A stretch of 64,000 nt of DNA from Pseudomonadota bacterium (GTDB lineage Bacteria > Pseudomonadota > Alphaproteobacteria > Rhodobacterales > Rhodobacteraceae), in NCBI GenBank assembly GCA_020161655.1, contig JAIUPC010000006.1:295014-359013 (forward strand). Reading direction: 5' to 3'. Positions 37,154 through 63,791 of the stretch are shown one piece after another (positions within the stretch are counted from its first letter, which is position 1; each line of letters begins with the position of its first letter). The translations under genes were made by a program, and so were the position numbers. The notes under the pieces were generated by a model. The model ran no database searches. It was not told the DNA's origin and worked only from the letters and a program-made list of their open reading frames with translations.

Positions 37154-38641
37154 TCAGAGCATCTGCGTCGCGGCCACGGCCTGTTTCCAGCGGGCATAGC
37201 GCGCGTCGCGGTCCTTCGCGGCCATGGCAGGTTGGAAGGTACGCTCTAGCGCCCAGCCCTTGGCGAACCCCTCCTGATCCGGGTAAATCCCGGCCCGCAT
37301 CCCAGCGAGCCAGGCCGCACCAAGCGCGGTCGTCTCAAGGATCTGCGGGCGGTCGACCGGCGCCCCGATGATGTCCGACAGGAACTGCATCGCCCAGTCC
37401 GACGCCGACATGCCGCCATCGACGCGGAGCGTCGCCTGCCCGGCGGGGTCTGCCCAGTCGGCACGCATCGCCTCCAAGAGGTCTCGGGTCTGGAAGCCGA
37501 CGCTTTCCAGTGCGGCGCGGGCAAGTTCGGCGGGCCCCGAACTCCGCGTCAGGCCATAGACCGCGCCCCGGCAATCGGCGTTCCAATAGGGCGCGCCAAG
37601 ACCGGTGAAGGCGGGCACCAGGATCACCGACTGTTCCGGATCGGCGGCCTCGGCCAAAGGCTGCGTCTCGGTCGCGTGGCGGATGATCTTCAGCCCGTCG
37701 CGGAGCCACTGGACCACGGCGCCGGCGATGAAAATAGACCCTTCCAAGGCATAAACGGGCTTTCCGTCAAGCTGGTAGGCGATGGTCGTCAGAAGCCGGT
37801 TCTTCGACATGACCGGCTTTGTCCCGGTGTTGAGCAGCGCGAAGCAGCCGGTGCCATAGGTCGATTTCATCATGCCGGGCGCAAAGCAGGCCTGACCGAT
37901 GGTCGCCGCCTGTTGGTCGCCGGCGATGCCAAGGATCGGGATCGGCCGGCCGAAAAGATCGGGCCGGGTCGTGCCATAGTCGGCGGCGCAATCGCGCACT
38001 TCGGGCAGCAGCGACATCGGGATGCCGAGCCGGTCGCAAAGCGTCTTCGACCAGCGGCCCTTGACGATGTCGTAAAGCATGGTCCGCGCCGCATTGGTCG
38101 CGTCCGTGGCATGGACCTTGCCGCCGGTCAGGTTCCAGACGAGCCAGCTGTCGACCGTGCCGAAGGCCAGTTCGCCCGCCTCCGCCCGCGCCCGCGCGCC
38201 CTCCACATTGTCGAGAAGCCAGGCGAGCTTGGTGCCGCTGAAATAGGGGTCAAGGAGCAGGCCCGTGCGCGCCGTCACCTCAGGCTCGAATCCTTCGGAC
38301 TTCAGCTTGCGACAGAACTCCGACGTCCGGCGGTCCTGCCAGACTATGGCATTATGAAGCGGCTTGCCGGTACTGCGGTCCCAAAGAATGGTCGTTTCGC
38401 GTTGGTTCGTGATGCCGATTGCGGCGATGTCGTTGGGGCCAAGCCCCGCCCGTTCGATGGCGGAGCGGCAGGTCGCGGCGGTCGTCGACCAGAGGTCAGC
38501 GGGGTCATGTTCGACCCAGCCGCTTGACGGGAAATGCTGCGGAAACTCTTCCTGCGCGGTCGCCACGATCTTCATCGCGGCGTTGAAGATGATGGCGCGG
38601 CTCGAGGTCGTGCCCTGATCTATGGCGAGGACATGTTTCAT
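37154..38641 (-). CDS. glpK: Glycerol kinase
   Basis: The 495-residue protein phosphorylates glycerol to glycerol 3-phosphate. FGGY-family motifs are clear: [14 protein letters not shown] at the start, [29 protein letters not shown] and the ADP site [15 protein letters not shown]. Length equals typical bacterial GlpK. I choose ATG 38641, where the IDQGTT motif begins; longer in-frame starts fall into the intergenic hairpin. It is the last gene of the glycerol operon, 91 bases after glpV. Confidence 0.96.
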
Positions 38642-38699
38642 GGGTCGCATTCCGTCCTGAAAGGGAAAAGCGCGGCGGGGGAGCATCCGCCACGCTGAT

Positions 38700-38723
38700 G
38701 GCCGGGGCCCGTAAGCCCCGGCC
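38700..38723 (-). other. Intercistronic stem-loop between glpV and glpK
   Basis: GGCCGGGGC (38700-38708) and GCCCCGGCC (38715-38723) form a 9-pair stem with a six-base loop directly after the glpV stop. It probably stabilises the binding-protein message and reduces read-through into glpK. Confidence 0.6.
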
Positions 38724-38732
38724 GGTTTCAGG

Positions 38733-40457
38733 TCACTGCCAGGACTTGATGAGCTCGTCGTAGGAAACGGTCTCGCCCTGAGGCTTTTCGTTCTCGAGCT
38801 TGGCAACCGGCGCGCCGGGCGCGTCGAGCCATTCCTGCGGGTCCTTCTCTTCGTTCATCTTCGGACCGATGTCGCCCTGAACGCCGGCGCGCTCAAGCCG
38901 CTCAAGCACCTTCTCCTGCTCGGCGCAGAGGGAATCGAGCGCTTCCTGCGGCGTCTTGGCGCCCGACATGGCGTCACCGATGTTCTGCCACCAGAGCTGT
39001 GCCAGCTTCGGATAGTCAGGAACGTTGGTGCCGGTCGGCGACCACTGGACACGGGCCGGCGAGCGGTAGAACTCGACCAGACCACCAAGTTTCGGCGCGC
39101 GTTCAGTGAAGGACGGGTGCTGGATCGTGCTTTCGCGGATGAACGTCAGGCCGACGTGGGCCTTCTTCACATCGACGGTCTTCGAGGTGACGAACTGGGC
39201 ATAAAGCCAGGCCGCCTGTGCGCGATCCACCGGGGTGGATTTCATCAGGGTCCAGGAACCAGCGTCCTGATAGCCGATCTTCTGGCCATTCTGCCAGTAG
39301 GCGCCGTGCGGCGAGGGGGCCATACGCCATTTCGGCGTGCCGTCCTCGTTCATCACTGGTGTTCCGGGTGCAACCGAGGCAGCAGTAAAGGCGGTGTACC
39401 AGAACATCTGCTGGGCAATTGCGCCCTGGGCAGGAACCGGTCCAGCCTCGCTGAAGGTCATGCCCTGCGCTTCCGGCGGCGTGTATTTCTGCAGCCACTC
39501 GATCGCCTTGGTCACGGCATAGACCGCCGCGGCATCGTTGGTCGAGCCGCCGCGCGCCACGCAGGAGCCGACGGGTTGCGACTGCTCGTTCACCCGGATG
39601 CCCCATTCGTCAACCGGCAACCCGTTCGGTTCGCCCACGTCGCCCATGCCTGCCATCGACATCCAGGCGTCGGTGTAGCGCCAGCCGAGGCTCGGGTCCT
39701 TCTTGCCGTAGTCCATGTTGCCATAGACGCCGGTGGCCGGCCCGCCCGCATAGGACATGTCACGACCGGTGAAGAACTCGGCGATGTCCTCATAGGCCGA
39801 CCAGTTGACCGGAACGCCAAGGTCATAGCCGTATTTGGCCTTGAAGTCGTCCTTGGTCTTCTGGTCGTTGAACCAGTCGTAGCGGAACCAGTAGAGGTTG
39901 GCGAACTGCTGGTCCGGAAGCTGGTAGACCTTGCCATCCGGCCCGGTCACGAAGCTGATGCCGATATAGTCCTGCAGGTCGAGGCCGGGGTTGGTCACCG
40001 ATGCGCCCTCGCCAGCCATCCAGTCAGTCAGGTTGCGGGCCTGCTGATAGCGCCAGTGAGTCCCGATCAGGTCACTGTCGTTGACGTAGGCGTCATAGAT
40101 GTTCTCGCCCGACTGCATCTGCGTCTGCAGCTTTTCGACGACGTCGCCTTCGCCGATCAGGTCGTGCGTAAGCTTGATGCCGGTGATCGCGGTAAAGGCC
40201 GGAGCCAGAACCTTGGATTCATAGCTGTGCGTGTCGATGGTCTCCGAGACGACCTTGATCTCCATGCCCGCATAGGGCTTGGCTGCATCGATGAACCACT
40301 GCATCTCGGCTTCCTGGCCGGCGCGGTCGAGCGTGGACAAGTCACCGATTTCGGCGTCGAGGAAGGCTTTCGCCTCTTCAATCCCGGCGAATGCCGGACC
40401 GGTAAGCAGCATGAGCGCCACACTCATTGCTGTTGTTGACTTGAATGGCAGTTTCAT
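38733..40457 (-). CDS. glpV: Glycerol ABC transporter substrate-binding protein
   Basis: The 574-residue periplasmic protein starts at ATG 40457 behind AAGGGAGG. It has a signal peptide ([24 protein letters not shown], cut before GIEEA) and a large extracellular solute-binding fold (family 1), longer than usual sugar-binding proteins because of an extra N-terminal helical part. This size, the position in the operon and the linked glp genes fit GlpV of the R. leguminosarum glycerol ABC system. It would deliver glycerol to GlpPQ. Confidence 0.9.
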
Positions 40458-40498
40458 TCGTACCTCCCTTTGAAAGACCATTCGTTTATCGGCGCCCC

Positions 40499-40514
40499 CC
40501 GGCCCACGGGCCGG
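40499..40514 (-). other. Short GC hairpin before glpV
   Basis: CCGGCCC and GGGCCGG are inverted complements two bases apart, between the stop of the small membrane protein gene and glpV. A stem of six pairs with a four-base loop is likely. It may be a processing or partial termination site within the operon. Confidence 0.4.
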
Positions 40515-40539
40515 ACCGCGCCTTCTCTCAGTTGCCGTC

Positions 40540-40812
40540 TCAGACCCAGCGGAAGACCGCGAAGGCGTAGATCAGGCAGACGATCAGCGCGCCCCATTGC
40601 GGTGCGCTGACAAGACCGAGCCAGGCCAGATTGATGAAGGCCGAACCCAGAAGAGTGATGAAAAGCCGGTCGCCGCGCGTCGTCTCGATCCTCAGGATGC
40701 CGGTGCGCGGCGTTTCCGGGAACTTGATCGCGAGGATCGTGAAGGTGAGAAGAAGGCAGGCGATGACCACGAAGAAGATCGCGGTCGGTACAGTCCAGGC
40801 CATCCATTGCAT
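40540..40812 (-). CDS. glpU: Small membrane protein of the glycerol transporter operon (DUF2160 type)
   Basis: The 90-residue protein has three hydrophobic helices (about 5-28, 51-68, 70-88) separated by a basic loop TRGDRLFITL. It matches the short DUF2160-type proteins that stand between the permease and binding-protein genes of glycerol ABC operons (named glpU in R. leguminosarum). Its function is not known; an accessory role in transporter assembly is a guess. It lies 24 bases after glpQ. Confidence 0.82.
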   Translation of the reverse strand: MQWMAWTVPTAIFFVVIACLLLTFTILAIKFPETPRTGILRIETTRGDRLFITLLGSAFINLAWLGLVSAPQWGALIVCLIYAFAVFRWV

Positions 40813-40836
40813 AGTGGAATCCTCCCTATTCCAGGG

Positions 40837-41688
40837 TCACACACGGCCGAGGGCGAAGCCCTTGGCGATGTAGTTGCGGACGAAATAGATCACGAGCGCG
40901 CCGGGCACGATGGTCAGCACCCCGGCCGCCGCCAGCACGCCCCAGTCGAGGCCCGAGGCGGAGACGGTCCGCGTCATCGTCGCGGCGATCGGCTTCGCGT
41001 TGACCGAGGTCAGCGTACGGCTGAGCAGCAGTTCCACCCATGAGAACATGAAGCAGAAGAAGGCCGCGACACCGATCCCGCTGGCGATGAGCGGCATGAA
41101 GATGCGGATGAAGAAGCGGCCGAAGCTGTAGCCGTCGATATAGGCGGTCTCGTCGATTTCCTTCGGCACGCCGCGCATGAACCCCTCAAGGATCCAGACC
41201 GCGAGCGGCACGTTGAATAGAGCATGGGCAAGCGCCACCGCGATATGCGTGTCGAAAAGCCCGACCGAGGAGTAAAGCTGGAAGAACGGCAGCGCGAAGA
41301 CCGCGGGCGGCGCCATCCTGTTGGTCAGGAGCCAGAAGAAGAGGTGCTTGTCGCCCAGAAACGAATACCGGCTGAAGGCATAGGCGGCGGGCAGTGCCAC
41401 CGTGATCGAGATGACGGTGTTCATCAACACGTAGATCAGGCTGTTGACGTAGCCCATGTACCAACTGGGGTCGGTCAGGATTGTCCGGTAGTTGGCAAGC
41501 GTGAAGTCCTGCGGCCAGAGCGAGAAGACATTCAGGATCTCCGTGTTTGTCTTCAGGCTCATGTTGATGAGCCAGTAGATCGGCAGCAGCAGGAAGACGA
41601 AGTAGGCGATCATCACCAGCGCCCGGCCATTGACGCGGGGCAGGCTCATCCCGCGCGCGGCGGTCGGGTTTGCAGTTGCGTCAGCCAT
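40837..41688 (-). CDS. glpQ: Glycerol ABC transporter permease GlpQ
   Basis: The 283-residue permease has six helices and the cytoplasmic EAA loop EIDETAYIDGYSFGRFFIRIFMPL that contacts the ATPase. It belongs to the MalG-like carbohydrate permease group. The ATG at 41688 shares its first base with the glpP stop (TGATG); a GTG one codon earlier is an alternative. Here glpQ names a permease, unlike E. coli glpQ (a phosphodiesterase). Confidence 0.9.
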   Translation of the reverse strand: MADATANPTAARGMSLPRVNGRALVMIAYFVFLLLPIYWLINMSLKTNTEILNVFSLWPQDFTLANYRTILTDPSWYMGYVNSLIYVLMNTVISITVALPAAYAFSRYSFLGDKHLFFWLLTNRMAPPAVFALPFFQLYSSVGLFDTHIAVALAHALFNVPLAVWILEGFMRGVPKEIDETAYIDGYSFGRFFIRIFMPLIASGIGVAAFFCFMFSWVELLLSRTLTSVNAKPIAATMTRTVSASGLDWGVLAAAGVLTIVPGALVIYFVRNYIAKGFALGRV

Positions 41689-42559
41689 CACACGCCATCC
41701 CTTTTGTCGAGGTTGGTCATCACGGTGTAGAAGACCCAGGAGATCAGCAGGATCACCAGAAAGTACATGATCGAGAAGGCGGCAGCGGGACCGAGGTCGA
41801 ACTGGCCGATGGCCATCTTCACTAGGTCGATGGAGAGGAAGGTCGTCGCGTTGCCCGGACCGCCGCCGGTGACGACGAAGGGTTCCGTATAGATCATGAA
41901 GCTGTCCATGAAGCGCAGTAGTATCGCGATCATCAGGACGCCCTGCATCTTCGGAAGCTCGATGTAGCGGAACACCTTCCAGCGGCTCGCCTGGTCGATC
42001 TTCGCCGCCTGATAGTAGGCATCGGGAATCGACTGGAGTCCGGCATAGGCCAGGAGCGCAACGAGCGAGGTCCAGTGCCAGACATCCATGACGATGACCG
42101 TGACCCAGGCATCCACCACGTCATTGGTGTAGTTGTAGTCGATGCCGAGAGCCGCGAGCGTGTATCCTAGAAGCCCGATGTCTACGCGGCCGAAGATCTG
42201 CCAGATGGTGCCGACCACGTTCCACGGAATGAGCAGCGGCAGCGCCATCAGGACGAGGCAGACCGAGGCCCAGAAGCCCCTTTTCGGCATGTTCAGAGCC
42301 ACAAATATGCCCAGCGGCACCTCGATGGCAAGGATGATGGCAGAGAACATCAGCTGCCGGCCAAGCGCATCCCACATGCGGTCGCTTTCCAGCATCTCGC
42401 TGAACCATTCGAGCCCGGCCCAGAAGAATTCGTTGTTACCGAAGGTGTCCTGCACCGAATAGTTGACCACGGTCATCAGCGGGACCACCGCCGAGAAGGC
42501 CACGAGGATCAGCACCGGCAGCACAAGGAACCAGGCTTTCTGATTGACGGTCTTTTCCA

Positions 42560-42560
<1 letters not shown>
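41688..42560 (-). CDS. glpP: Glycerol ABC transporter permease GlpP
   Basis: The 290-residue permease has six predicted helices, MalF-like, with the EAA-type loop IPDAYYQAAKIDQASRWKVFRYIELP. It should form the membrane channel with GlpQ. Its ATG overlaps the glpT stop (TGATG) in the same manner as the next junction, a sign of tight translational coupling across the transporter genes. Confidence 0.9.
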
Positions 42561-43636
<1,076 letters not shown>

Positions 43637-43651
43637 CGGTCTATCCCCTCC

Positions 43652-44740
43652 TCATGCCGCGAGCGCGTAGGCGGCAGGCGCGACAAGCCGCCCGTCCTCG
43701 CCAAAAATGTAGATATGCGCCGGGTCGAGGAAGACGCTCATGTCCTCGCCCAGCTTCAGATTGCGGATGCCGTGCAAGACGCCAACCCAGCGCCCGCCGC
43801 CGTGGTCGAAGTGGACGAAGGTCTCCGACCCGGTGATTTCGGTGACATGCAGCTTGGCCGTGAAGCTCAAGGCATCGGGCGTGTGCCGCTCGATCTCCAC
43901 ATGGTTCGGGCGGAAGCCGGCTAGGTAGCGGCCATCGGAGATGTCGTGCAGGCGGCCCGTGGCGGTGGCGCTCTGGCCATTGCCGAACAGCAGCTTGGTC
44001 CCGGTCTTCGACACCGGCATGAAGTTCATCGGCGGATCGCTGAAGACGCGCGCCGTGGTCGCATCGACCGGCTTGCGGTAAACCTCGGGCGTCGGCCCGA
44101 ACTGCGTCACCCGGCCTTCCCAAAGCGTCGCGGTATTGCCGCCGAGAAGCAGTGCCTCTTCCGGTTCGGTCGTCGCATAGACGAAGATCGAGCCGGATTC
44201 CTCGAAGATCTTCGGGATCTCGACCCGCAGCTCCTCGCGGAGCTTGTAGTCGAGGTTGGCGAGCGGTTCATCGAGAAGGACGAGGCCGGCGTTCTTCACG
44301 AGCGCCCGCGCCAGCGCGCAGCGCTGCTGCTGGCCGCCGGAAAGCTCCAGGGGCTTCCGGCCCAGAAGTGGCGACAGCTTCATCAGGTCGGCGGCCTTTT
44401 TCACCGCCGCGTCGATCTCGGCGGCGGTCTTGCCCAGAAGCCGCATCGGCGAGGCTATGTTGTCGTAGACCGTCATCGAGGGGTAGTTGATGAACTGCTG
44501 GTAGACCATCGCCACCTTGCGGTCCTGTACCCGCATCCCGGTCACATCCTGACCGTTCCACAGGATTCGACCCTGATTTGGCTTGTCGAGACCCGCCATC
44601 AACCGCATCAGCGATGTCTTGCCCGATGAGGTCGGCCCAAGAAGGACGTTCATCGTCCCGTTCTGCAGGGTAAGGGTCGTCGGATGGATATGGGTCTGGC
44701 CGCCAGCGACCTTGGTGACCCCATCAAGCGTCAGTGTCAT
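43652..44740 (-). CDS. glpS: Glycerol ABC transporter ATPase GlpS
   Basis: The 362-residue MalK-type ATPase has Walker A GPTSSGKTSLMR (about residue 36), an intact LSGGQQQRCALARAL signature, Walker B LVLLDEPLANLDY, and a C-terminal regulatory domain. The H-loop position reads TTEPEEAL where most members have THDQ, so the switch histidine is replaced by glutamate. With GlpT, whose signature is degenerate, it may form a heterodimer with one good catalytic site. It lies 15 bases after glpD. Confidence 0.9.
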   Translation of the reverse strand: MTLTLDGVTKVAGGQTHIHPTTLTLQNGTMNVLLGPTSSGKTSLMRLMAGLDKPNQGRILWNGQDVTGMRVQDRKVAMVYQQFINYPSMTVYDNIASPMRLLGKTAAEIDAAVKKAADLMKLSPLLGRKPLELSGGQQQRCALARALVKNAGLVLLDEPLANLDYKLREELRVEIPKIFEESGSIFVYATTEPEEALLLGGNTATLWEGRVTQFGPTPEVYRKPVDATTARVFSDPPMNFMPVSKTGTKLLFGNGQSATATGRLHDISDGRYLAGFRPNHVEIERHTPDALSFTAKLHVTEITGSETFVHFDHGGGRWVGVLHGIRNLKLGEDMSVFLDPAHIYIFGEDGRLVAPAAYALAA

Positions 44741-44755
44741 TCCCGTCCCTCCCCG

Positions 44756-46351
44756 TCATTCCGCCGCATGGTTGGCGCTGCCGCGACGGGCCTTCGCCAT
44801 CCAGGCTTCCAGCGCCGAGATTTCCTCAGGCGTCAGGCGCAGTCCCAGTTTCGATCGCCGCCAGATCACATCCTCGGCGGTCAGCGCGTATTCGCGGCCC
44901 ATCAGCCAGTCGATCTCGCGCGCCGTCAGCGTTGCGCCGAAGTCCTGGCCAAGATCGGCGGCAGAGCGTGCATCCCCTAAAACGTCGACCGCTTCGGTGC
45001 CGTAGGCCCGGACCAGCCGCTTTGCCCAGAAATCCGTCAGGAACGGATAGCGCGCCTTCAGCTTTCCGATCAGCTTCGCCACGCCGTCATGCGCGAAATC
45101 GCCGCCCGGCAGCGGCACGCCTGCCGTCCAGGGCTTCGCCGCCCGCCCAAGCGTCGCCCCGATCTTTTCAAGCGCGCTTTCGGCGAGGCGGCGGTAAGTG
45201 GTGATCTTGCCGCCGAAGACGTTCAGGACCGGCGCACCGGCCGACGTATCGACCTTCAGCGTATAGTCGCGCGTCGCTGCGGTGGCCGAGCTTGCGCCAT
45301 CGTCGTAGAGCGGGCGCACCCCGGAATAACTCCAGACGATATCGGCTGGCGTCACTGGTTTTTCGAAGTATTGCGAGGCGAAAGTGCAGAGATAGTCTCT
45401 TTCCGCATCGGTGCAGAAGGGGCGAAGATCGGGGTTTTCATGTTCGGCATCGGTGGTGCCAATCAGGGTGAAATCCGTCTCATAGGGGATCGCGAAGATG
45501 ATCCGGCCATCCTCGCCCTGGAAGAAATAGCACTTGTCGTGGTCGAAAAGCCGCTTCGTCACGATATGGCTGCCACGTACCAACCGCACGCCCTCGGTCG
45601 AGTTCAGGCGCAGCGTGTCGTGGATGATCTCGCCAACCCATGGACCGCCGGCATTGACCAGCATCCGCGCCCGGATGACGCGGGGGCCGGAGGCGTCCTT
45701 GACCGACACTTCCCAGATGCCATCCACCTGCCGCGCGCCGGTGACCGCTGTCCGCGTCAGGATCTTCGCCCCCCGCGCCGCCGCGTCGCGGGCATTGAGG
45801 ACAACCAGCCGCGAATCCTCGACCCAGCAGTCGGAATACTCGAAGGCGTGGCGGAATTTCTTCTTCAAGGGCTTGCCCGCCTGATCGGAAGCCAGATCCA
45901 CCGTGGACGTACCGGGCAGGATCTTCAGCCCGCCGCCGAGATGATCATAAAGGAACAGGCCCATGCGGATCAGCCAGGCAGGACGACGGCCCTTCATCCA
46001 TGGCATCACCACATTCAGGATGCGCGAGGTGGGGGTATCCCCCTCGAACCGCATTTCCTTGCTGTAGGGCAGGACAAAGCGCATCGGCCAGCTGATATGC
46101 GGCATGGCGCGCAGAAGCGTCTCACGCTCGATCAGCGCCTCGCGGACCAGACGAGCCTCGAAATACTCAAGATAGCGGAGCCCGCCGTGAAAAAGCTTGG
46201 TCGAGGCGGAGGAGGTTGCCGAAGCAAGATCGTTCATCTCGGCGAGACAAACCGAAAAGCCCCGCCCCGCCGCATCGCGCGCGATCCCGCAGCCGTTGAT
46301 GCCCCCGCCAATGACGAAGAGATCGTATAGCTGATCGTCGGATGCAGACAC
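44756..46351 (-). CDS. glpD: Aerobic glycerol-3-phosphate dehydrogenase
   Basis: The 531-residue flavoprotein oxidises glycerol 3-phosphate to dihydroxyacetone phosphate at the inner membrane and passes electrons to quinone. It begins with the FAD fold DLFVIGGGINGCGIARDAAGRG and has the GlpD pattern SSASTKLFHGGLRYLEYFE and RVIRARMLVNAGGPW. Length fits E. coli GlpD (501) with a slightly longer tail. It is the first gene of the operon, so it and the transporter share the glpR-controlled promoter region upstream. Confidence 0.95.
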   Translation of the reverse strand: MSASDDQLYDLFVIGGGINGCGIARDAAGRGFSVCLAEMNDLASATSSASTKLFHGGLRYLEYFEARLVREALIERETLLRAMPHISWPMRFVLPYSKEMRFEGDTPTSRILNVVMPWMKGRRPAWLIRMGLFLYDHLGGGLKILPGTSTVDLASDQAGKPLKKKFRHAFEYSDCWVEDSRLVVLNARDAAARGAKILTRTAVTGARQVDGIWEVSVKDASGPRVIRARMLVNAGGPWVGEIIHDTLRLNSTEGVRLVRGSHIVTKRLFDHDKCYFFQGEDGRIIFAIPYETDFTLIGTTDAEHENPDLRPFCTDAERDYLCTFASQYFEKPVTPADIVWSYSGVRPLYDDGASSATAATRDYTLKVDTSAGAPVLNVFGGKITTYRRLAESALEKIGATLGRAAKPWTAGVPLPGGDFAHDGVAKLIGKLKARYPFLTDFWAKRLVRAYGTEAVDVLGDARSAADLGQDFGATLTAREIDWLMGREYALTAEDVIWRRSKLGLRLTPEEISALEAWMAKARRGSANHAAE

Positions 46352-54827: not shown

Positions 54828-57800
54828 GTGGCATCCGCCCGAGGGCTGCCCGGGAAAGGCTCTGACGTGAGCTTGCGCGCTTGGCTCGAAGGACTTGGGC
54901 TTGCCGACTATGTCGCGGCCTTCGACGCCAACCACATCGACGAACGCATCCTGCCGACCCTGACCAAGGACGATCTTCTCGACCTTGGCATCGCCTCTCT
55001 CGGCCACCGGAAAATCCTTATGGCCGCGATCGAGGGGCTTCAGTCACCTGCTGCGCCCCCGCCGCCAAAGTCCGAAGGTGAACGACGCCCCGTCACCGTG
55101 CTTTTCGCCGACCTCACCGGCTACACCGCGCTCAGCCGGACGCTCGACCCCGAAACGCTGCATGGCGTGATCGAGACCTATTTCGCCTTCGCCGACCGGA
55201 TCATCGAGGAATACGGCGGCTATATCGACAAGCATGTCGGCGACAGCGTAATGGCGGTCTTTGGCGCGCCGGTTGCCCATGGCAATGATGTCGAACGCGC
55301 CGCCCGCGCGAGCCTTGACATCGTGAACGGCCTCGGCGGCCTTGCCCTGCCGGGCGGCCTGACGATCTCGGCCCATGCCGGGCTGGCCTATGGCGAGGCG
55401 GTCGCGGCGCAAACGGGAAGCGCCGCCCATGCCGCCTATACCGTGACCGGCGATGTGGTGAACCTCGCCGCCCGCTTGACCGGCCTTGCAAAGGCGGGTC
55501 AGGTCGCGGTGTCGGATACCGCGCAAAGCCATCTCGCCGCGCTCTTCCGCCTGACCTCCGCCGGTGAGGCCGAAGTGAAGGGGCTGGCCGCGCCCGTCGC
55601 CTACTGGCTTCTCGATGGCATGTCGCCGCGCGAACCCGCCGCCGCGCCCAATTTCGCCGGGCGGCACGCGGAACTCCTGCAGCTTCGCGCCATCGCGCAA
55701 TCGGTTCTCGCTGGCGGCCCCGCCACACATGCCCATCTGCGCGGCGAGGCGGGCATCGGCAAATCGCGCCTGACGGAAGAGGTTGTCGGCTGGGCACGTG
55801 ACGCTGGATTCGACGTTGTTTCAGCCGGATTTCTCGATTTCGGCGTGGAACAGGGTCGTGACGCGACCCAGCGCCTCGCGCAGGCGCTTTACCGGCCAAA
55901 CGACTTCCCTGAAGGGCCGCACCTTCACGTCCACGCCCGCGACCTTCTTGGCACCGTGACCGCGCCTGAGGATGCAGCCCTTCTGACCACGCTCGACCCC
56001 GCCGCCCGCCTTGCCGGTCAGGCGGAGGCGCTGGCCGAGATGTTGACGGCGCGGGGGGCGGAGAAACCCCTGCTCGTGGTCATTGAGGACATGCATTGGG
56101 CCGGCCCGCAGCGAAGCGAGATGATCGCGGCGATGATCCGCGGCGCAAAATCCGCGCGCTGCCTTTTCCTGACCACTTCGCGCCCCGAAAACGATCCCGC
56201 CTCCACTGGCTTTCCGCCCGTCCTCGCCCCCGCCGCGACGCTTGAGATCGGCCCCCTTCGGCTGGCCGAGGCGCGGGCGATGGCGGAAGGGCTGGCCGAG
56301 GTCGATGCTGGCCTTGTCGATGAGCTTGTTGCCCGAAGCGGCGGCCACCCCCTCTTCCTTGAGCATCTCCTCCGCTACTCGACCGAGGAGAATGCCGAAC
56401 AGGTCCCGGATTCGGTGCGCAACGTCGTCCTTGCCGGGGTCGACGGCCTGGATGCGATTGCCCGGCGCGTCTTGCAGGCCGCCGCCATCCTTGGCCAGCG
56501 CGGCTCGACCGAGGCACTTGCCGCTGTGGCCGGCAGTCAGTACGACCCCGCCGCCATCCGCAACCGCTACATCGTGCCCGTCGATGCGGGCGAATACCGC
56601 TTCACCCACGCGCTCGTCCGGGATGCGATCTACGATACGCTTCTTGGCCCGGTCCGGCGCAACCTCCACGCCCGCGCCGCCACCTTTTTCGCCGGGCGCG
56701 ACCTGCCGCTTCACGCCCGCCATCTGGCCCTCGCCGGCGATCCGGGTGCCGCTGAGGCCTACCGCGCCGCCGCCGCCCAGGCCATCGACACGGCGGCCTT
56801 CGACCTCGCGGTGGAACTGGCGGCAGCGGGGCTGACATTGCCTGCACCGCCTGCTACCACATCGGACCTCGCGCTCTTGCAGGGCAGGGCGCTCTTTTCC
56901 CTTGGTCAGACACAGGATGCGATTGATGCCTTCGAACGGGCAGTCGAAGCCGCCGGAGACAGTGTCAGCCGCGCCAGGGCGGAAATCGCGCTCGCCAGCG
57001 CGTTGCGTGTAGTGGAGCGGTCGGACGACGCCTTTCGGCTTCTGGCTGTGGCAGAGGCGCAGCTGGAAAAAACCGAAGCCTGGAGCGATCTCGCCGATCT
57101 CTGGAGCCTGCGCGGCAACCTGCATTTCCCAAGGGCCGAGATTGCCGAATGCCGCGCGGCGCATGAACAGGCTCTGGTTTTCGCCGAAAAGTCCGGCTCG
57201 GTCGATCATATCGCCCGCGCGCTTGGCGGGATCGGCGATGCTGCCTATGCCGCCGGGACGCTGCACCGCGCCATCTGGGCCTTCGACCGCTGTGTCGAGC
57301 TGGCTGAAAAGCACGGACGCCTCGCCATCGTCGCCGCGAACCGCAACATGAGGGCCATCTCGCGGATCTTCGCCGGCCCTGTCGCCGGGTTGGAACAGGA
57401 AGCCGAGGCCGCCATCGCCGCTGCCCGCCGCATCGGCCATGCCCGCGCCGAGGTCATCGCCTGCCACGCCGCCATGTGCCTGAGGCTCTTCAACGGCAAG
57501 CCCGGCGAAGCCCTGCCCTATTTCGACCGCGCGCAGACCCTCTCCGAACGCATCGGCGCCCGGCGCTTCATCTCTGAGAACCTCGCCTTCCTCGGCGAAG
57601 CGCTGCGTCAGCAGGGCAAGACCGGTGAGGCGCGCGACCGGCTTGAGGCGGCACTGACTCTCTCGCGCGAGACGGGCCTTCGCTACATCGGCCCGCTGGT
57701 GCTCGGCTATCTTGCACGGGTCTGCTCCGATGATCCCGCCCGCCGCCGCGCGCTGATCGAGGAGGGGGCCGCGCTCATCGCCGACGACAGGCTTGCCCAC

Positions 57801-58073
57801 AACGTCCTCTTCTTCGGAATGAATGCCATCGAGTGCAACCTTGAGGACGGCGATCTTGCCGCCGCCCGCCACCATGCTGCGACGCTCGAAGCCGGTTTCC
57901 GCGAAGATCCCCTGCCCTTCGTCGACTTCCTGGTATCACGCGCGCGGGCAATCATCCGGCAGCGGGAGGGTGAGGATGCGGCCGACGCGCTGAGACAGGC
58001 TGCCGACCTTGGCCGCAAGCTTGGCTACCTGGCGCTCCTGCCGGAACTCGAAGTCGCGACCGGCGCGACCTGA
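54828..58073 (+). CDS. SAM domain-class III nucleotide cyclase-AAA ATPase-TPR signalling protein
   Basis: The start is GTG 54828 after AAGGGAAG. The 1081-residue protein holds, in order, a SAM domain (about 10-65, WLEGLGLADYVAAFDANHI), a class III cyclase domain (about 85-260), a STAND/AAA-type ATPase (Walker A GEAGIGKSRL near 306) and helical TPR repeats to the end. The cyclase keeps the metal aspartates (FADLTGYT and GDSVMAVFG) and the transition-state Asn and Arg (VTGDVVNLAARL), so it may be active. Substrate residues cannot be settled by eye. The TPR array and ATPase suggest ligand-driven assembly. It does not obviously belong to the following three genes. Confidence 0.88.
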   Translation: MASARGLPGKGSDVSLRAWLEGLGLADYVAAFDANHIDERILPTLTKDDLLDLGIASLGHRKILMAAIEGLQSPAAPPPPKSEGERRPVTVLFADLTGYTALSRTLDPETLHGVIETYFAFADRIIEEYGGYIDKHVGDSVMAVFGAPVAHGNDVERAARASLDIVNGLGGLALPGGLTISAHAGLAYGEAVAAQTGSAAHAAYTVTGDVVNLAARLTGLAKAGQVAVSDTAQSHLAALFRLTSAGEAEVKGLAAPVAYWLLDGMSPREPAAAPNFAGRHAELLQLRAIAQSVLAGGPATHAHLRGEAGIGKSRLTEEVVGWARDAGFDVVSAGFLDFGVEQGRDATQRLAQALYRPNDFPEGPHLHVHARDLLGTVTAPEDAALLTTLDPAARLAGQAEALAEMLTARGAEKPLLVVIEDMHWAGPQRSEMIAAMIRGAKSARCLFLTTSRPENDPASTGFPPVLAPAATLEIGPLRLAEARAMAEGLAEVDAGLVDELVARSGGHPLFLEHLLRYSTEENAEQVPDSVRNVVLAGVDGLDAIARRVLQAAAILGQRGSTEALAAVAGSQYDPAAIRNRYIVPVDAGEYRFTHALVRDAIYDTLLGPVRRNLHARAATFFAGRDLPLHARHLALAGDPGAAEAYRAAAAQAIDTAAFDLAVELAAAGLTLPAPPATTSDLALLQGRALFSLGQTQDAIDAFERAVEAAGDSVSRARAEIALASALRVVERSDDAFRLLAVAEAQLEKTEAWSDLADLWSLRGNLHFPRAEIAECRAAHEQALVFAEKSGSVDHIARALGGIGDAAYAAGTLHRAIWAFDRCVELAEKHGRLAIVAANRNMRAISRIFAGPVAGLEQEAEAAIAAARRIGHARAEVIACHAAMCLRLFNGKPGEALPYFDRAQTLSERIGARRFISENLAFLGEALRQQGKTGEARDRLEAALTLSRETGLRYIGPLVLGYLARVCSDDPARRRALIEEGAALIADDRLAHNVLFFGMNAIECNLEDGDLAAARHHAATLEAGFREDPLPFVDFLVSRARAIIRQREGEDAADALRQAADLGRKLGYLALLPELEVATGAT

Positions 58074-58287: not shown

Positions 58288-59058
58288 ATGCGCCAACATC
58301 TCTTTCGTCGTCTTGGTTCCTTTCTGAGTATCCCCCTTGCCGCAAGTCTCGCCATGTCCACTGCCCCTTCGATGGTGCGGGCGGATGAGGCCGTGCACAT
58401 GGAAACTGCCCTGCGCCTGGCTTCGCTTCTCAGGTCGGCGCGATCGGTGATCGCGTCGGAACAGGCGCTCATCAACGACCCTGCCATCGGCGACAAAGGC
58501 CTGACCGGCGACCATGTCCTTGAGCTTGCCACCAAGGCCTATCTCGAAGCCAATGGCACCGAGCCCTTGCACGATGGTCAAGACCCCCTGGAAGCGCGGC
58601 TGATCGAAGCGCAGATGCAGGCGATCCGCACGGTGATGGCCGACAATCAGGCGACGATCAACGCCGACGGCATTGCCTTCAAGGGCTTCGTTCCCGCCGT
58701 CTTCGGGCGCCTCGTGAATGAAAGCTTCGCCAGCTTCGTCGGCACCGAGGCGCAGGTCAAGGTGACGGCGCCGCCCGATCTTGTCCGCAACCGCAAGGCC
58801 ATGCCGGATGAGTGGGAAACGAAGATCATCGCCGATGACCTCATGTCCCCGGACTGGCCGAAGGGCCAGGTCTATGCCGAACTGACCGAGCTTGGCGGAA
58901 AGCCGGCCTACAGGGTGCTGGTGCCGGAATATTACGGCACCGGCTGCCTTTCCTGCCACGGCGAGCCGAAGGGTGAGATCGACATCACCGGCTATCCGAA
59001 AGAGGGCGGCCGCGAGGGCGATCTCGGCGGGGTCATCAGCATCAGCATCTTCCGCTGA
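58288..59058 (+). CDS. Secreted Tll0287-like (DUF3365-type) c-type haem protein
   Basis: The 256-residue protein has a signal peptide (FLSIPLAASLAMSTAPSMVRA, cut before DEAVH). The body resembles the Tll0287-like haem domain (DUF3365). A single c-type haem site, CLSCH, is at residues 220-224 near the C-terminus. Such domains also occur as sensor inputs of signalling proteins. The gene lies 42 bases before a hybrid histidine kinase, so I infer that it senses redox state or a gas in the periplasm for that kinase. It could instead be an electron carrier. Confidence 0.83.
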   Translation: MRQHLFRRLGSFLSIPLAASLAMSTAPSMVRADEAVHMETALRLASLLRSARSVIASEQALINDPAIGDKGLTGDHVLELATKAYLEANGTEPLHDGQDPLEARLIEAQMQAIRTVMADNQATINADGIAFKGFVPAVFGRLVNESFASFVGTEAQVKVTAPPDLVRNRKAMPDEWETKIIADDLMSPDWPKGQVYAELTELGGKPAYRVLVPEYYGTGCLSCHGEPKGEIDITGYPKEGGREGDLGGVISISIFR

Positions 59059-59100
59059 GATGCGACACCCGGCGCAGCATAACGGCGCTGCGGAGGCTTG

Positions 59101-62100
59101 ATGGCGAGGTATTCGATCCTCCTCAGGCTGGTGCTGCTGTCGGGTGTGCTTCTGGCCTTCCTTCTGGCGACCAACGCCTTCCTGTCGTCGCGCCTTGCAC
59201 GCAACGCCACCGCCATCTCCGACGGTGCGGCGGCGATCCAGACGCTGACGCGCGCGAATGCGGCAAGCACGCATTTCGGTGAGTTGAAATACTGGCTCTC
59301 CGACCTGTCGGTCAGCCTGCTCGTCCGGTCCGAACGCAATGCCAAGGATGCCCGCGCGGCGCTGGAGGAAGAGCTTGCAGCACTTGAGGGCATCGCACCG
59401 GACCGCGTGGCGATCATCCGAACCGAGGTTGCCGCGCTCTTCGAGCAATCCATGCGCGCCGTTGATGCCTATACCAATGACCAGCGGGTGATCGGCAATT
59501 CGCTGGTGGCCAAGGGACAGGAACATATACGCCGCGTCGATGACGAACTTGGCGCACTGGTGGCCGAGCTTGAGTCGCAGGCGGTGGCGAAAAGCGATGC
59601 GGCCCATGCCGAGGCGGCCAGCGCGGTCAGCCTGTCGAAATGGATCGTCATTGCTGCTGGCATCACCGGCCTTCTCCTGACGCTGGTGATCGTCGGCTCG
59701 ATCACCTCGCCGCTCAGGCAATTGCTTCGGGCGATGGAGGAGATCACCGGCGGCAATCTTGGCGCGCGGCTGCCAAAGGCCGGCAGCGACGAAATCGGCG
59801 CAATGGGCAAGACGCTCGGCCTCTTCCGCGACAGTCTGGCGGAACGCGAGCGGTTGGCGGTGCTGCGCGAGGAAGCCGACCGCGAGGTTCTCAGGACCAA
59901 GACGCAACTGACCGAGGCGATCGCGGCGATCAGCGAGGGCTTCGCGCTTTTCGACGCCGACGACCGCCTGGTGATCTGCAACCAGCGCTACAAGGACATG
60001 TATGCGAAGATCGGGCTGGTGCTGACGCCCGGTGTCACCTTCCGCGACATCGCCGCAGATGTCGTGGCGACCGAGATCGTCGAAGACGCCGCGCCGGAAA
60101 GCTGGGTCGACCGCCGCGTGACCCAGCACCTTCACCCTGAAGGCCCGTTCGAGCAGAAGCGCACCGACGGCACCTGGATGAAGATCAGCGAACGCCCGAC
60201 CGAGGCGGGCGGCATCGTCGGCGTCTTCACCGACATCACCGAAGTGAAGGAGCGCGAGGCGAAGCTTCAGGAGCTTGTCGAAAGCCTCGCCGAGGCGCGC
60301 GACGTGGCCGAGCGCGCGACCGTCGCGAAAAGCCAGTTCCTCGCCAACATGAGCCATGAGATCCGCACACCGATGAACGGCGTCATCGGGATGAGCAACC
60401 TCCTGATGGACACGGATCTTTCGCCCGAGCAGATGGAGTTTGCCCGCACAGTCAACGAAAGTGCCGAAAGCCTGTTGACGGTCATCAACGACATTCTTGA
60501 CTATTCCAAGGTGGAGGCCGGCAAGCTTGAACTGGAGCGACTGCCCTTCAACCTCCGCGACTGCGTGGAAAGCGCGCTCGATCTGGTGGCGATGGCGGCG
60601 GCGCGCAAGGGGCTGGATCTGGCCTATTTCATCGAGCCGGACGTGCCCGACACCATCGTCTCGGACCCGACGCGGCTGCGGCAGGTTCTCCTCAACCTTC
60701 TCAACAACGCGCTGAAATTCACCGAGAAGGGCGAGGTTGTCCTGACCGTCGCCCGCGATGGCGAAACGGCGCATGGCGAGTGTCGGCTTCTGGTCTCGAT
60801 CCGCGACACCGGCATCGGCATTCCGGCGGACCGGCAGGCGATCCTGTTTCAGTCCTTCACCCAGGCCGATGCGACGACGACGCGCCGCTATGGCGGCACC
60901 GGGCTTGGCCTTGCGATCAGCCAGCGGCTCGTCGACCTCATGGGCGGGCGCATCTGGCTGGAAAGCGTCGAAGGTCAGGGCACCACCTTCCGCTTCACCA
61001 TCACCGCGCCGGTCGGCGAACCGATCGGCACCACCGGGCTTGATGCGGCGCGACCCGACCTTGCCGGCAAGCGCCTGCTGATCGTCGACGACAATGCGAC
61101 CAACCGGCATCTCCTGTCGCGGCTGGCCGAGACCTGGTCGATGGTGCCGGTTGAGGTCGCCCTCCCCGAAGATGCCGCCGCCGCCTTTGCCGGCGGGCGC
61201 TTTGCCGCCGCGATTCTCGACATGCACATGCCAGGGATGGACGGCGTCGAACTCGCGCGGGCGCTGCGCCTGACCGAGGCCGGGCGCGACCTGCCGATGA
61301 TCCTTCTAAGCTCGCTCGGACAGGCCAACGATCACAGCCGCGCCGAACTCGATGAGATCGGCTTTGCCGAGGTCCTGTCGAAGCCGGTCAAGCCCTCGCC
61401 GCTTCTCAATGCCCTTGTCAGCATCTTTGCCGGGCGCCCGGTGCGGGTGATCGACCGGGCCGAGCGCAAGAAGCCGGCATTCGACGCCAGCCTCGCCGAA
61501 AGACTGCCGCTGCGCATTCTCCTCGCCGACGATCACCCGACGAACCAGAAGCTGGGCCGGACGATCCTGAAGCGGCTTGGCTATGCCTCGGACCTCGCCC
61601 GCAACGGGGTTGAGGTTCTGGAGGCGGTGGCGCGGCAGACCTACGACCTTGTCCTGATGGACATCGAGATGCCCGAGATGGACGGGCTTGAAGCAACGCG
61701 CCGCCTCATCGCCACCTATCCCGAAGCGACGCGGCCGAAGATCATCGCCGTCACCGCCAATGCGATGGAAGGCGACCGCGAGAAATTCATCAAGGCCGGG
61801 ATGAGCGGCTATGTCAGCAAGCCGATCCGCGTGCCCGATCTGGTCGAGGCGCTGATGACCACATTCGGGCGCAAGGCGAAGGAGACCCCCGCGATGCCGC
61901 AAGACGACACCAACGAGGCATTTGACGTGAGGGCGATTGAGCGGCTTCTCGACACCATCGGCGGCGACCGGGAATCGCTTGGCGAGCTTGTCGAGAGCTT
62001 TCTCGAGGAAGGCCCCGGCCTGATTGGCCGCATTGGCCGCGCCGCAAGGGACGGCGATGCCGAAGGTCTGAGACAAGCCGCCCATACGATGAAATCCAGT

Positions 62101-62265
62101 GCCGCCGACTTTGGCGCAATGCCTCTGTCGCAACTCTGCGCGATGCTTGAGAAAATGGGCCGGTCGGGGCAGCTCGACGGGGCTGAGACGCTGGCAGAGC
62201 AATCCGCGCTGTCCTACCGCGCGGCGGCGGAGGCCTTGCACCAATACATGAACGGCCAGGAATAG
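59101..62265 (+). CDS. Hybrid histidine kinase with HAMP, PAS, two receivers and HPt
   Basis: The ATG at 59101 follows GGAGG. The 1054-residue membrane kinase has two helices (about 10-30 and 180-205) around a helical periplasmic sensor, a HAMP segment, and a PAS domain (about 270-380). The phosphorylated His419 lies in NMSHEIRTPMNG; the ATPase shows NLLNNALKFTEKG and GGTGLGLAIS. Two receivers follow with phospho-Asp in AILDMHMPGMDG and LVLMDIEMPEMDG, then an HPt domain with His995 in AAHTMKSSA. It is thus a complete phosphorelay and lacks only a final receiver with an output, which the next gene could supply. A haem protein gene precedes it. Confidence 0.93.
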   Translation: MARYSILLRLVLLSGVLLAFLLATNAFLSSRLARNATAISDGAAAIQTLTRANAASTHFGELKYWLSDLSVSLLVRSERNAKDARAALEEELAALEGIAPDRVAIIRTEVAALFEQSMRAVDAYTNDQRVIGNSLVAKGQEHIRRVDDELGALVAELESQAVAKSDAAHAEAASAVSLSKWIVIAAGITGLLLTLVIVGSITSPLRQLLRAMEEITGGNLGARLPKAGSDEIGAMGKTLGLFRDSLAERERLAVLREEADREVLRTKTQLTEAIAAISEGFALFDADDRLVICNQRYKDMYAKIGLVLTPGVTFRDIAADVVATEIVEDAAPESWVDRRVTQHLHPEGPFEQKRTDGTWMKISERPTEAGGIVGVFTDITEVKEREAKLQELVESLAEARDVAERATVAKSQFLANMSHEIRTPMNGVIGMSNLLMDTDLSPEQMEFARTVNESAESLLTVINDILDYSKVEAGKLELERLPFNLRDCVESALDLVAMAAARKGLDLAYFIEPDVPDTIVSDPTRLRQVLLNLLNNALKFTEKGEVVLTVARDGETAHGECRLLVSIRDTGIGIPADRQAILFQSFTQADATTTRRYGGTGLGLAISQRLVDLMGGRIWLESVEGQGTTFRFTITAPVGEPIGTTGLDAARPDLAGKRLLIVDDNATNRHLLSRLAETWSMVPVEVALPEDAAAAFAGGRFAAAILDMHMPGMDGVELARALRLTEAGRDLPMILLSSLGQANDHSRAELDEIGFAEVLSKPVKPSPLLNALVSIFAGRPVRVIDRAERKKPAFDASLAERLPLRILLADDHPTNQKLGRTILKRLGYASDLARNGVEVLEAVARQTYDLVLMDIEMPEMDGLEATRRLIATYPEATRPKIIAVTANAMEGDREKFIKAGMSGYVSKPIRVPDLVEALMTTFGRKAKETPAMPQDDTNEAFDVRAIERLLDTIGGDRESLGELVESFLEEGPGLIGRIGRAARDGDAEGLRQAAHTMKSSAADFGAMPLSQLCAMLEKMGRSGQLDGAETLAEQSALSYRAAAEALHQYMNGQE

Positions 62266-62285
62266 GCCGTGTGGGGGAGAGTGAG

Positions 62286-63791
62286 ATGAAAGGTGACCGT
62301 GGTCGCGTGCTGGTGGTCGATGACCACAAACCGAGCCGGATGAAACTTGCGCTTGCGGTGCAGAACCTTGGCCATGAGGCCGCAAGCGTCGATAGCGGCA
62401 TGGCCTGTCTCGAAGCCCTGAGGAGCAGCCGGTTCGACATGGTCCTTCTGGATATCGTCATGCCCGGCATGGACGGTTTCCAGGTGCTGGCCGAGATCAA
62501 GCGCGACCCCGCCCTGCGCGATATTCCCGTCATCGTCATCACCGCACTGGACGAGATGGAGGACGCGGCCCGCGCCATCGAGCTTGGCGCAGATGACCTT
62601 CTCACCAAGAACTTCAACCCGGTCCTTCTGAAGGCCCGGGTCGGCGCCGGCCTTGAAAGGAAGCGTCTCCGCGATCAGGAGCTAGAATACCTCCGCCAGG
62701 TCGACCGGCTCGCCGCCGCCTCGGGGCTCATCGAGGGCAAGGATTTCGACCCCGCCCACCTTGGCCTTACTGACATCGCCGCGCGCGACGACCGGCTTGG
62801 CAACCTGGCCCGCGTTTTCCTCGGGATGGCGGGTGAGGTCTACCGGCGCGAACAGAACCTCAGGAAGCAGATCAGCCTGCTGAAGGGCGGCTTCCTCATC
62901 ATGCTTCTTGGCGTCTGCTGGGGGCTGATCCCGTCCCTGTCGCGCATCATCATGACCGACGGGCTCAATCCCCTGGGCGTGGCGTTCTGGACCCTTGGCA
63001 TCAGCGCCACGATCATGCTCGTCCTGTCGGTCCTGACCGGCCGGCTGCCGGAGGCAAGCTGGCCAGCGGTCCGGCGCTACCTGATCCTTGGCCTTTTCGG
63101 CGCGGTCCTGCCGCATCTGTTCCTGTTCTGGGTGGCGGGACATGTGCCCGCGATGATCATCGCTATCGTGCTTGCCGCCGAAAGCTTCATCGTATTTATC
63201 CTGGCTGCCGTGCTTGGCCTTGAAGCCCCGAACCTCAAGCGCTTCATCGGGCTCAGCTTCGGCCTCGCCTGCGTCGTGCTCATCATGGTGCCGGGCAGCG
63301 ACGGCACCGGCGTTTCAAGCTGGTTCTGGATCGCGGCGACGCTCGGGATTCCCTTCTGCTACGCGATCGAGGATATCGTGGTCGCCGCCCTGCCCGCGGA
63401 AGGCACCGATGTGATCGGGACGACGACGGGTTTCTCTCTCGCCGCCGCGGCGATCCTGATGCCGGTCACGGTTGTCTCCGGCTCGATGATCTATCCGGCG
63501 GAGGCCATGGCGCAATATGGCCTGCCCTTCCTGATGATCGCCTGCCTCAGCTCGTTCAGCACGCTTCTGCTGATCTTCACCATCCGCACCACCGGCGCCG
63601 TCTTCGCCAGCCAGACCGGCTACGCCATGACTGCCGGCGGCATCCTCTGGAGCGTCATCCTTCTTGACGAGGAGATGTCGGTCTGGATCTGGGCGGCCCT
63701 CGCCTGCCTCGTCTCGGGCCTGGCGCTGGTGATGCCGAAGGAGACGGAGGTGCAGATTCCGGGCGACCTTGAGTTTCGGTCTGAGAGTTGA
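62286..63791 (+). CDS. Response-regulator receiver fused to an EamA/DMT-type transporter
   Basis: The ATG at 62286 follows GGGGGAGAG; a GTG five codons earlier is possible. The 501-residue protein starts with a receiver domain (about 8-122): VLVVDD, phospho-Asp56 in MVLLDIVMPGMDG, Thr86 and Lys108. A linker (about 130-198) with LRQVDRLAAASGLIEG, ARDDRLGNLARVF and GEVYRREQNLRKQ resembles the signalling coil that usually joins receivers to cyclase or phosphatase outputs. Here it leads into ten membrane helices (about 201-490) of the EamA/drug-metabolite transporter family. All three parts are in one frame without a break. The gene starts 20 bases after the kinase stop. Phosphorylation might gate a carrier; substrate unknown. 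Confidence 0.9.
   Translation: MKGDRGRVLVVDDHKPSRMKLALAVQNLGHEAASVDSGMACLEALRSSRFDMVLLDIVMPGMDGFQVLAEIKRDPALRDIPVIVITALDEMEDAARAIELGADDLLTKNFNPVLLKARVGAGLERKRLRDQELEYLRQVDRLAAASGLIEGKDFDPAHLGLTDIAARDDRLGNLARVFLGMAGEVYRREQNLRKQISLLKGGFLIMLLGVCWGLIPSLSRIIMTDGLNPLGVAFWTLGISATIMLVLSVLTGRLPEASWPAVRRYLILGLFGAVLPHLFLFWVAGHVPAMIIAIVLAAESFIVFILAAVLGLEAPNLKRFIGLSFGLACVVLIMVPGSDGTGVSSWFWIAATLGIPFCYAIEDIVVAALPAEGTDVIGTTTGFSLAAAAILMPVTVVSGSMIYPAEAMAQYGLPFLMIACLSSFSTLLLIFTIRTTGAVFASQTGYAMTAGGILWSVILLDEEMSVWIWAALACLVSGLALVMPKETEVQIPGDLEFRSES

Follow-up and report, generated by a model that had tools for sequence, protein, structure and literature searches.

A receiver–EamA fusion beside hybrid histidine kinases with HPt: a candidate phosphorelay ending in a membrane carrier

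Can a two-component relay act directly on a membrane carrier? The question is raised by one end of a 64,000-nucleotide stretch of DNA from a member of the Rhodobacteraceae (the whole stretch that was analysed, hereafter the window), where a response-regulator receiver domain (REC) and a DMT-type carrier of the EamA family are joined in a single protein behind a hybrid histidine kinase. Relays of this sort normally terminate in a gene switch; the one encoded here ends in a predicted membrane carrier, and its signal may steer transport directly. Below we describe the fusion, its occurrence in other genomes and the genes that accompany it, and weigh the proposed relay against other explanations.

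A receiver and an EamA carrier in one frame

The fusion is encoded by one intact frame of 501 amino acids at window positions 62286–63788 on the plus strand, followed by a stop codon (62286–63791 in all). Its ATG at 62286 lies 20 bases past the stop codon of the kinase gene, with GGGGGAGAG just 5′ of it, and is the likelier start; the frame in the list of open reading frames runs from 62271 to 63791 and begins with a GTG at 62271, a start that is also possible. The contig ends 209 bases 3′ of the fusion gene, and the window ends there too.

Pfam places a receiver domain (Response_reg, PF00072) at residues 8–119 (62307–62642, plus strand; score 97.3 bits, cut-off 30.2, E 7.8e-28) and EamA as two separate stretches (whole-protein score 69.1 bits, cut-off 28.2, E 6.1e-19; the second half scored alone reaches 27.7 bits, just below the cut-off). 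A preliminary description of the locus, made from the sequence alone, had proposed a complete receiver joined to EamA in a single protein, and this holds: both domains exceed the Pfam cut-off in one frame, the residues Asp56, Thr86 and Lys108 that it had named are in place, and Asp12 and Asp13 round off the site. The receiver contains the full set by which response regulators are recognized, namely the DD pair, the acceptor aspartate (Asp56), T/S and lysine. The carrier part (residues about 200–490; 62883–63755, plus strand) has the two repeats and the ten membrane helices expected of DMT/EamA proteins, the helix count being taken from a low-confidence model; the ten helices of the preliminary description were thus predicted again, but in the half of the model where confidence is low. 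Among the 29 fusions collected below, the seven scanned with Pfam gave no other domain above its cut-off. The EamA carrier is the only recognizable output of the fusion, which is real, recurrent and unusual.

Receiver and carrier are connected by a helical linker (residues about 120–200; 62643–62885, plus strand), weakly HAMP-like by sequence comparison and predicted by the structure model to be continuous with the first membrane helix. The model gives pLDDT block means of 89–97 for the receiver (residues 11–130) and of 37–57 for the carrier half, for which the alignment held 12 rows, two of them covering EamA; for the EamA part, a single relative (L017, described below) could contribute. One long helix, residues 170–225, leads from the linker into the first of ten membrane helices. 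Because the carrier half is of low confidence, it is only this predicted helix that suggests a coupling of the linker to the first membrane helix. No solved structure matched the EamA part by sequence, up to an E value of 10.

The linker was found in the 22 copies listed, being more diverged in L120 and in the second fusion at each of L097, L099 and L118. An alignment of linker and HAMP profiles by hhalign was in register (probability 8%, P 0.0043), and the Pfam HAMP model gave no match in the window and E values of 0.11 and 0.022, short of the cut-off, in two relatives; we rejected the assignment to HAMP as too weak to claim. The nearest non-carrier relative of the linker that was found belongs to a REC-HD protein of the Chloroflexota (L018), where it precedes an HD domain; the earlier description of the coil as the kind that normally drives a cyclase or phosphatase was stated too firmly on this point.

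The fusion recurs, patchily, around one family

In total, 29 copies of the receiver–linker–EamA architecture were collected at 25 loci, mostly within the family of the window, the Rhodobacteraceae. Identity to the fusion is 73–97% in five members of the same genus (97% and 73–76%) and about 33–42% in the remoter copies. An assembly error, with receiver and EamA encoded only as separate genes in related genomes, had been named as the finding that would undo the fusion; it was rejected on the 29 copies in the same frame.

The frequency of the fusion was estimated in genome samples of increasing breadth. Full-length or near-full-length relatives were present in the genus sample in 8 genomes out of 22 (besides the window, five at 73–97% and two at 38–41% identity with several copies), in the family sample in 7 out of 295 (E ≤ 1e-60, the window's own counted) and in the order sample in 13 out of 390 (E ≤ 1e-100), seven of these being new. 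The class sample returned the window's own copy alone among 385 genomes at E ≤ 1e-50, and the phylum sample gave three fusions in 349 genomes, all within the window's family; its fourth match (G875) consists of the EamA part only, with an internal stop. Among 80 loci kept from the genome collection, the single fusion is L017, from an uncultured Rhodobacteraceae bacterium (81% identity in the best segment); the linker matched in L017 and L018 only, the carrier part in L017 only, and the reading frames of these loci held no EamA gene elsewhere than in L017.

Outside the window's family, the fusion was seen only in Mesorhizobium, where it rests on at least three plasmid records, labelled complete, with 42% identity across 98% of the query; two of them were retrieved for study. 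A relaxase gene and traG lie about 7–8 kb downstream of the fusion on the Mesorhizobium plasmid, which would fit transfer between lineages. As far as sampled, the distribution is patchy, with its centre in the family of the window.

A hybrid kinase and an HPt domain accompany the fusion

The gene upstream of the fusion in the window encodes a hybrid histidine kinase with the Pfam order HAMP-PAS-HisKA-HATPase-REC-REC-HPt (59098–62265, plus strand), whose HPt domain occupies residues 963–1040 (61984–62217, plus strand; motif AHTMK). The preliminary description had placed the fusion right behind such a kinase and had seen no other partner for its HPt. Both observations stand, as the two genes are 20 bases apart and the window holds, among the 26 receiver matches listed, only the two receivers of the kinase and that of the fusion. 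The HPt profile found only two places in the 4.08-Mb genome of the window, one of them this kinase; with HPt domains so few, the company of the fusion with an HPt is not background. The same genome has 54 EamA matches, two halves for most carriers and hence roughly 27 carriers, and among the receiver matches listed only the EamA match of the fusion is overlapped by one. No Rfam element reached its gathering score between positions 57900 and 64000.

The preliminary description had asked whether a hybrid kinase with HPt is always the neighbour of the fusion. It is at 23 of the 25 loci, counted as a kinase core plus receiver together with an HPt, and both loci without the full set (L102 and L120) hold broken kinases. 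The first 18 loci (the window, L017, L097–L102 and L113–L122) have kinase and HPt at 16, and a fresh test on all seven loci new from the order sample found them at seven of seven. Gene order varies and the set stays together: kinase–HPt–fusion is commonest, L143 has HPt–fusion–kinase, the fusion of L144 is convergent, another gene parts the kinase from HPt and fusion in L141, and in L099 two fusions come before the kinase, with pieces of a third after the HPt. The HPt is encoded in the kinase frame in the window, L113–L117 and L144 and in a separate frame elsewhere, and its H-x-x-K motif is present at 22 of the 22 loci inspected (15 + 7; L122 left out). In L017 (5583–8745), HPt and kinase are read in different frames and overlap at the kinase end (8380 versus 8393); either the two have separated naturally or the genome assembly contains an error here.

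L097, L099, L118 and L119 each have two intact fusions beside a single kinase and HPt. The members of each pair are different REC-EamA copies, and the linker of the second is markedly diverged in the first three of these loci; the third copy in L099 (16073–17181) lies after the HPt in pieces, in two frames. The cluster of L102 (5102–10490, in a single-contig genome) is decaying: its kinase is split over two frames that overlap, a transposase separates the kinase from an N-terminally truncated fusion, and there is no match to HPt. L120 contains kinase pieces only.

Other potential recipients of phosphate were sought with one receiver query at E 1e-4, which diverged receivers may escape, and 22 of the 24 retrieved stretches contained no extra receiver protein. 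The remaining two encode a REC-guanylate cyclase between HPt and kinase (L141, 11868–12923, plus strand) and a single-domain receiver between the kinase and the convergent fusion (L144, 9446–9805, plus strand), each of which could share the HPt; a receiver piece in L099 belongs to the split REC-EamA copy and so was not counted as extra. Among the receivers matched by this query, none beside the clusters shares its protein with a DNA-binding domain. Near the clusters of L097, L099, L101, L102 and L139 lie DNA-binding proteins that lack a receiver, and L140 and L142 contain a second kinase gene within the stretch. The neighbours that were named, a part of the total, include no recurring metabolic gene near the fusions, and for this reason we name no substrate.

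Sensor-type partners vary

The gene before the kinase in the window encodes a Tll0287-like protein (58288–59058, plus strand; Pfam) with a CxxCH haem-binding motif and, as judged by eye, a signal-like N-terminus. This protein is likely to be the sensory partner of the kinase, and its haem motif is kept in seven of the seven members of the window's clade. Directly before it lies a gene for a 1081-amino-acid protein (54828–58073, plus strand) with SAM, guanylate cyclase, AAA_16 and TPR matches. Farther upstream, at about 37200–46300, the DNA is 77% like plasmid-borne glycerol genes (glpD, glpK and an ABC transporter) of Paracoccus and Pseudosulfitobacter. Over positions 30000–54000, these two genera gave the best plasmid matches, but numerous Rhizobium records matched as well, in partial agreement with a place in the Rhodobacteraceae.

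A gene for a solute-binding or haem-type protein was found near the fusion at 21 of the 25 loci. The partner is Tll0287-like at seven loci, which form the window's own clade (the window, L017 and L113–L117), DctP-type at five (L098, L100 and L138–L140) and SBP_bac_3-type at four (L101, L141, L142 and L144; on the opposite strand in L141 and L142). At five more (L097, L099, L102, L118 and L119) it is a 256-amino-acid protein with no Pfam match in the two scanned, whose family matches the SBP_bac_3 protein of L141. None was found at L120, L121, L122 and L143; the kinases of L121 and L143 bear GAF domains instead. The DctP genes had no TRAP membrane genes among the neighbours scanned. Inputs vary freely and the receiver–carrier stays constant, as would be expected if the latter were the output.

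Relay residues and carrier positions are conserved

The 29 copies from 25 loci were aligned; L121 and L122 are near-identical, and the N-terminal part is missing from L102, and from L144 when read from its first start codon. Asp12 and Asp13 are present in all 27 copies that are long enough and Asp56 in 28 of 28, position 86 is Thr or Ser in 29 of 29 (Thr in two), and Lys108 is found in 29 of 29. Over 15 loci, mean identity is 60% in the receiver, 57% in the linker and 43% in the carrier part, the least conserved part of the fusion; for the kinase core, the kinase sensor part and the HPt it is 69%, 34% and 43%.

In the carrier part, 27 positions are fixed in at least 27 of the 29 fusions. These were compared with three free-standing EamA carriers of the window's genus (L002, L111 and L112), which align to the carrier part only, at 27–32% identity, and share fixed positions with it: 18 are identical in all three, including G201, E313, R319, G322, G437, F440, Q443, Y446, W455 and E462, five are common to some of them, and four (301, 303, 304 and 348) differ in all three. 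With 18 of the 27 in common, the carrier part resembles a working carrier rather than a bare anchor.

Distances of the six parts (receiver, linker, EamA, kinase core, kinase sensor and HPt) correlate in 15 of 15 pairings over 15 loci (r 0.88–0.95; as high in 0 of 2,000 permutations), although shared descent of the cluster would also produce such a correlation.

A candidate relay and its alternatives

Genomic evidence gives good support to a relay that runs from a sensor over kinase and HPt to the receiver–carrier. A periplasmic sensor, here the haem-type Tll0287-like protein and elsewhere solute-binding proteins, would act on the membrane hybrid histidine kinase; phosphate would pass from the kinase histidine to the kinase receiver, to the HPt histidine and on to Asp56 in the cytoplasmic receiver at the N-terminus of the fusion. 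The resulting change in the receiver would be carried by the helical linker, predicted to be continuous with the first membrane helix, and alter the activity of the ten-helix EamA carrier. That phosphorylation gates the predicted carrier is our best inference; it might raise or lower transport, and the putative substrate might be moved in either direction. Among DMT carriers of this kind, exporters are common. The reading as a whole, in which a carrier serves as the response regulator of a phosphorelay, we regard as more likely than not.

Information might flow the other way. The EamA part would then be a solute sensor or flux-reporting carrier that sets the gain or loss of phosphate by the receiver, and the fusion would act on the kinase like a transceptor, as feedback or as a sink for phosphate. 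Conservation of the phosphotransfer residues is expected here as well, and carrier–kinase fusions such as CbrA, in excerpts of one report (PMC13022988), show that carriers can serve as sensors. The kinases, however, own sensor parts, a sensor-like protein gene is present at 21 of 25 loci, and at 22 of the 24 retrieved stretches the one receiver query found no second receiver protein to bear the output, which makes this flow unlikely in our view. Alternatively, the fusion may be just one target among several in a conventional two-component system that acts mainly through a regulator, either unlinked or nearby; such an arrangement is compatible with a relay onto the carrier. L141 and L144 do have a second receiver protein, and unlinked partners are invisible to neighbourhood analysis; but no protein with receiver and DNA-binding domain was found beside the clusters by the one query at E 1e-4, which could miss diverged ones, and we rate this arrangement as distinctly unlikely.

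The lower conservation of EamA (43% mean identity, where the receiver has 60% and the linker 57%) would suit a mere membrane anchor, whereby a membrane-bound receiver acts on another protein or drains phosphate. An anchor would not need the 18 of 27 fixed positions that match the three free-standing carriers, and we consider this role improbable. A misassembled gene fusion or a functionless relic might be suspected from the patchy distribution, the decayed clusters of L102 (with its transposase) and L120 (with its kinase pieces) and the split third copy in L099. Yet the frame is the same in 29 copies, including Mesorhizobium plasmids called complete and genus members at 97% and 73–76%; for the fusion as such, chance or artefact is refuted, and as an account of the system we give it hardly any credence. 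On this balance we retain the relay onto the carrier as the preferred reading.

If the relay does end in the carrier, the clusters could represent a class of complete two-component circuits without transcriptional output, in which an external binding protein senses a solute or the redox state and, within seconds, the relay switches one or two carriers open or shut; the whole would be a closed membrane 'solute-stat'. We offer this wider proposal tentatively and would put it somewhat short of an even chance; if true, one HPt would set two different carriers at four loci.

Comparison with known systems

Response-regulator outputs are known to be DNA-binding, enzymatic or protein-binding, and the carrier would apparently be a new one. 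A carrier output would extend the list of two-component outputs by a transport class, would place membrane transport under direct, fast and reversible control by a signal-sensing kinase, and would offer transport physiology a natural, genetically separable switch, a single aspartate, on a DMT carrier. Current annotation conceals the fusion, as the Mesorhizobium copies are called just 'response regulator'. Judged by titles and the beginnings of abstracts, none of the literature matches listed concerns a receiver–carrier fusion; the output censuses of Galperin (2006, 2010) lay outside this scope. In the available text of one study (PMC12487129), response regulator, receiver domain and EamA appear as separate gene families, and that of an archaeal census (PMC5847659) lacks the word 'transporter'.

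A similar layout of genes is found in relays of the TorT/TorS type, which consist of a periplasmic binding protein, a hybrid kinase, an HPt and a response regulator. The present clusters likewise have a binding-protein gene beside a hybrid kinase with HPt, and the best NCBIfam match of the window's kinase is the TorS model, at 503.1 bits below its cut-off of 676.5. The TorS sensor domain (PF21689) exceeds the cut-off in L100 and L101, falls below it in L098 and has no match in the window's kinase at E 0.001. Unlike in TorT/TorS systems, the regulator here is a carrier and not a DNA-binding protein. The best match of the fusion among solved structures is PleD; PleD, REC-HD and other receiver-enzyme regulators differ from it in having enzyme outputs.

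Post-translational action of a receiver on a membrane-bound protein has a precedent in EpsW of Myxococcus, which alters EpsZ, according to excerpts of the report (PMC12802240); EpsW is a separate single-domain receiver, however, and it acts on a glycosyl transferase instead of a carrier. CbrA and the SLC5-STAC histidine kinases unite a carrier and two-component parts in one protein, as passages of one paper describe (PMC13022988; see also PMC9100948). In CbrA the carrier stands on the input side, on a kinase, whereas in the fusion it stands on the output side, on a receiver; and where the SLC5-STAC class is defined by carrier, STAC and kinase domains, Pfam gives the fusion a receiver and EamA only. 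The nearest working analogue of the fusion as a regulated carrier is LacS of Streptococcus thermophilus, a secondary carrier whose fused soluble IIA domain receives phosphate from HPr(His~P) and controls transport (PMC10703360, in part). LacS differs in belonging to the PTS and not to a two-component relay, its carrier is of another family, and its soluble domain is attached at the opposite end.
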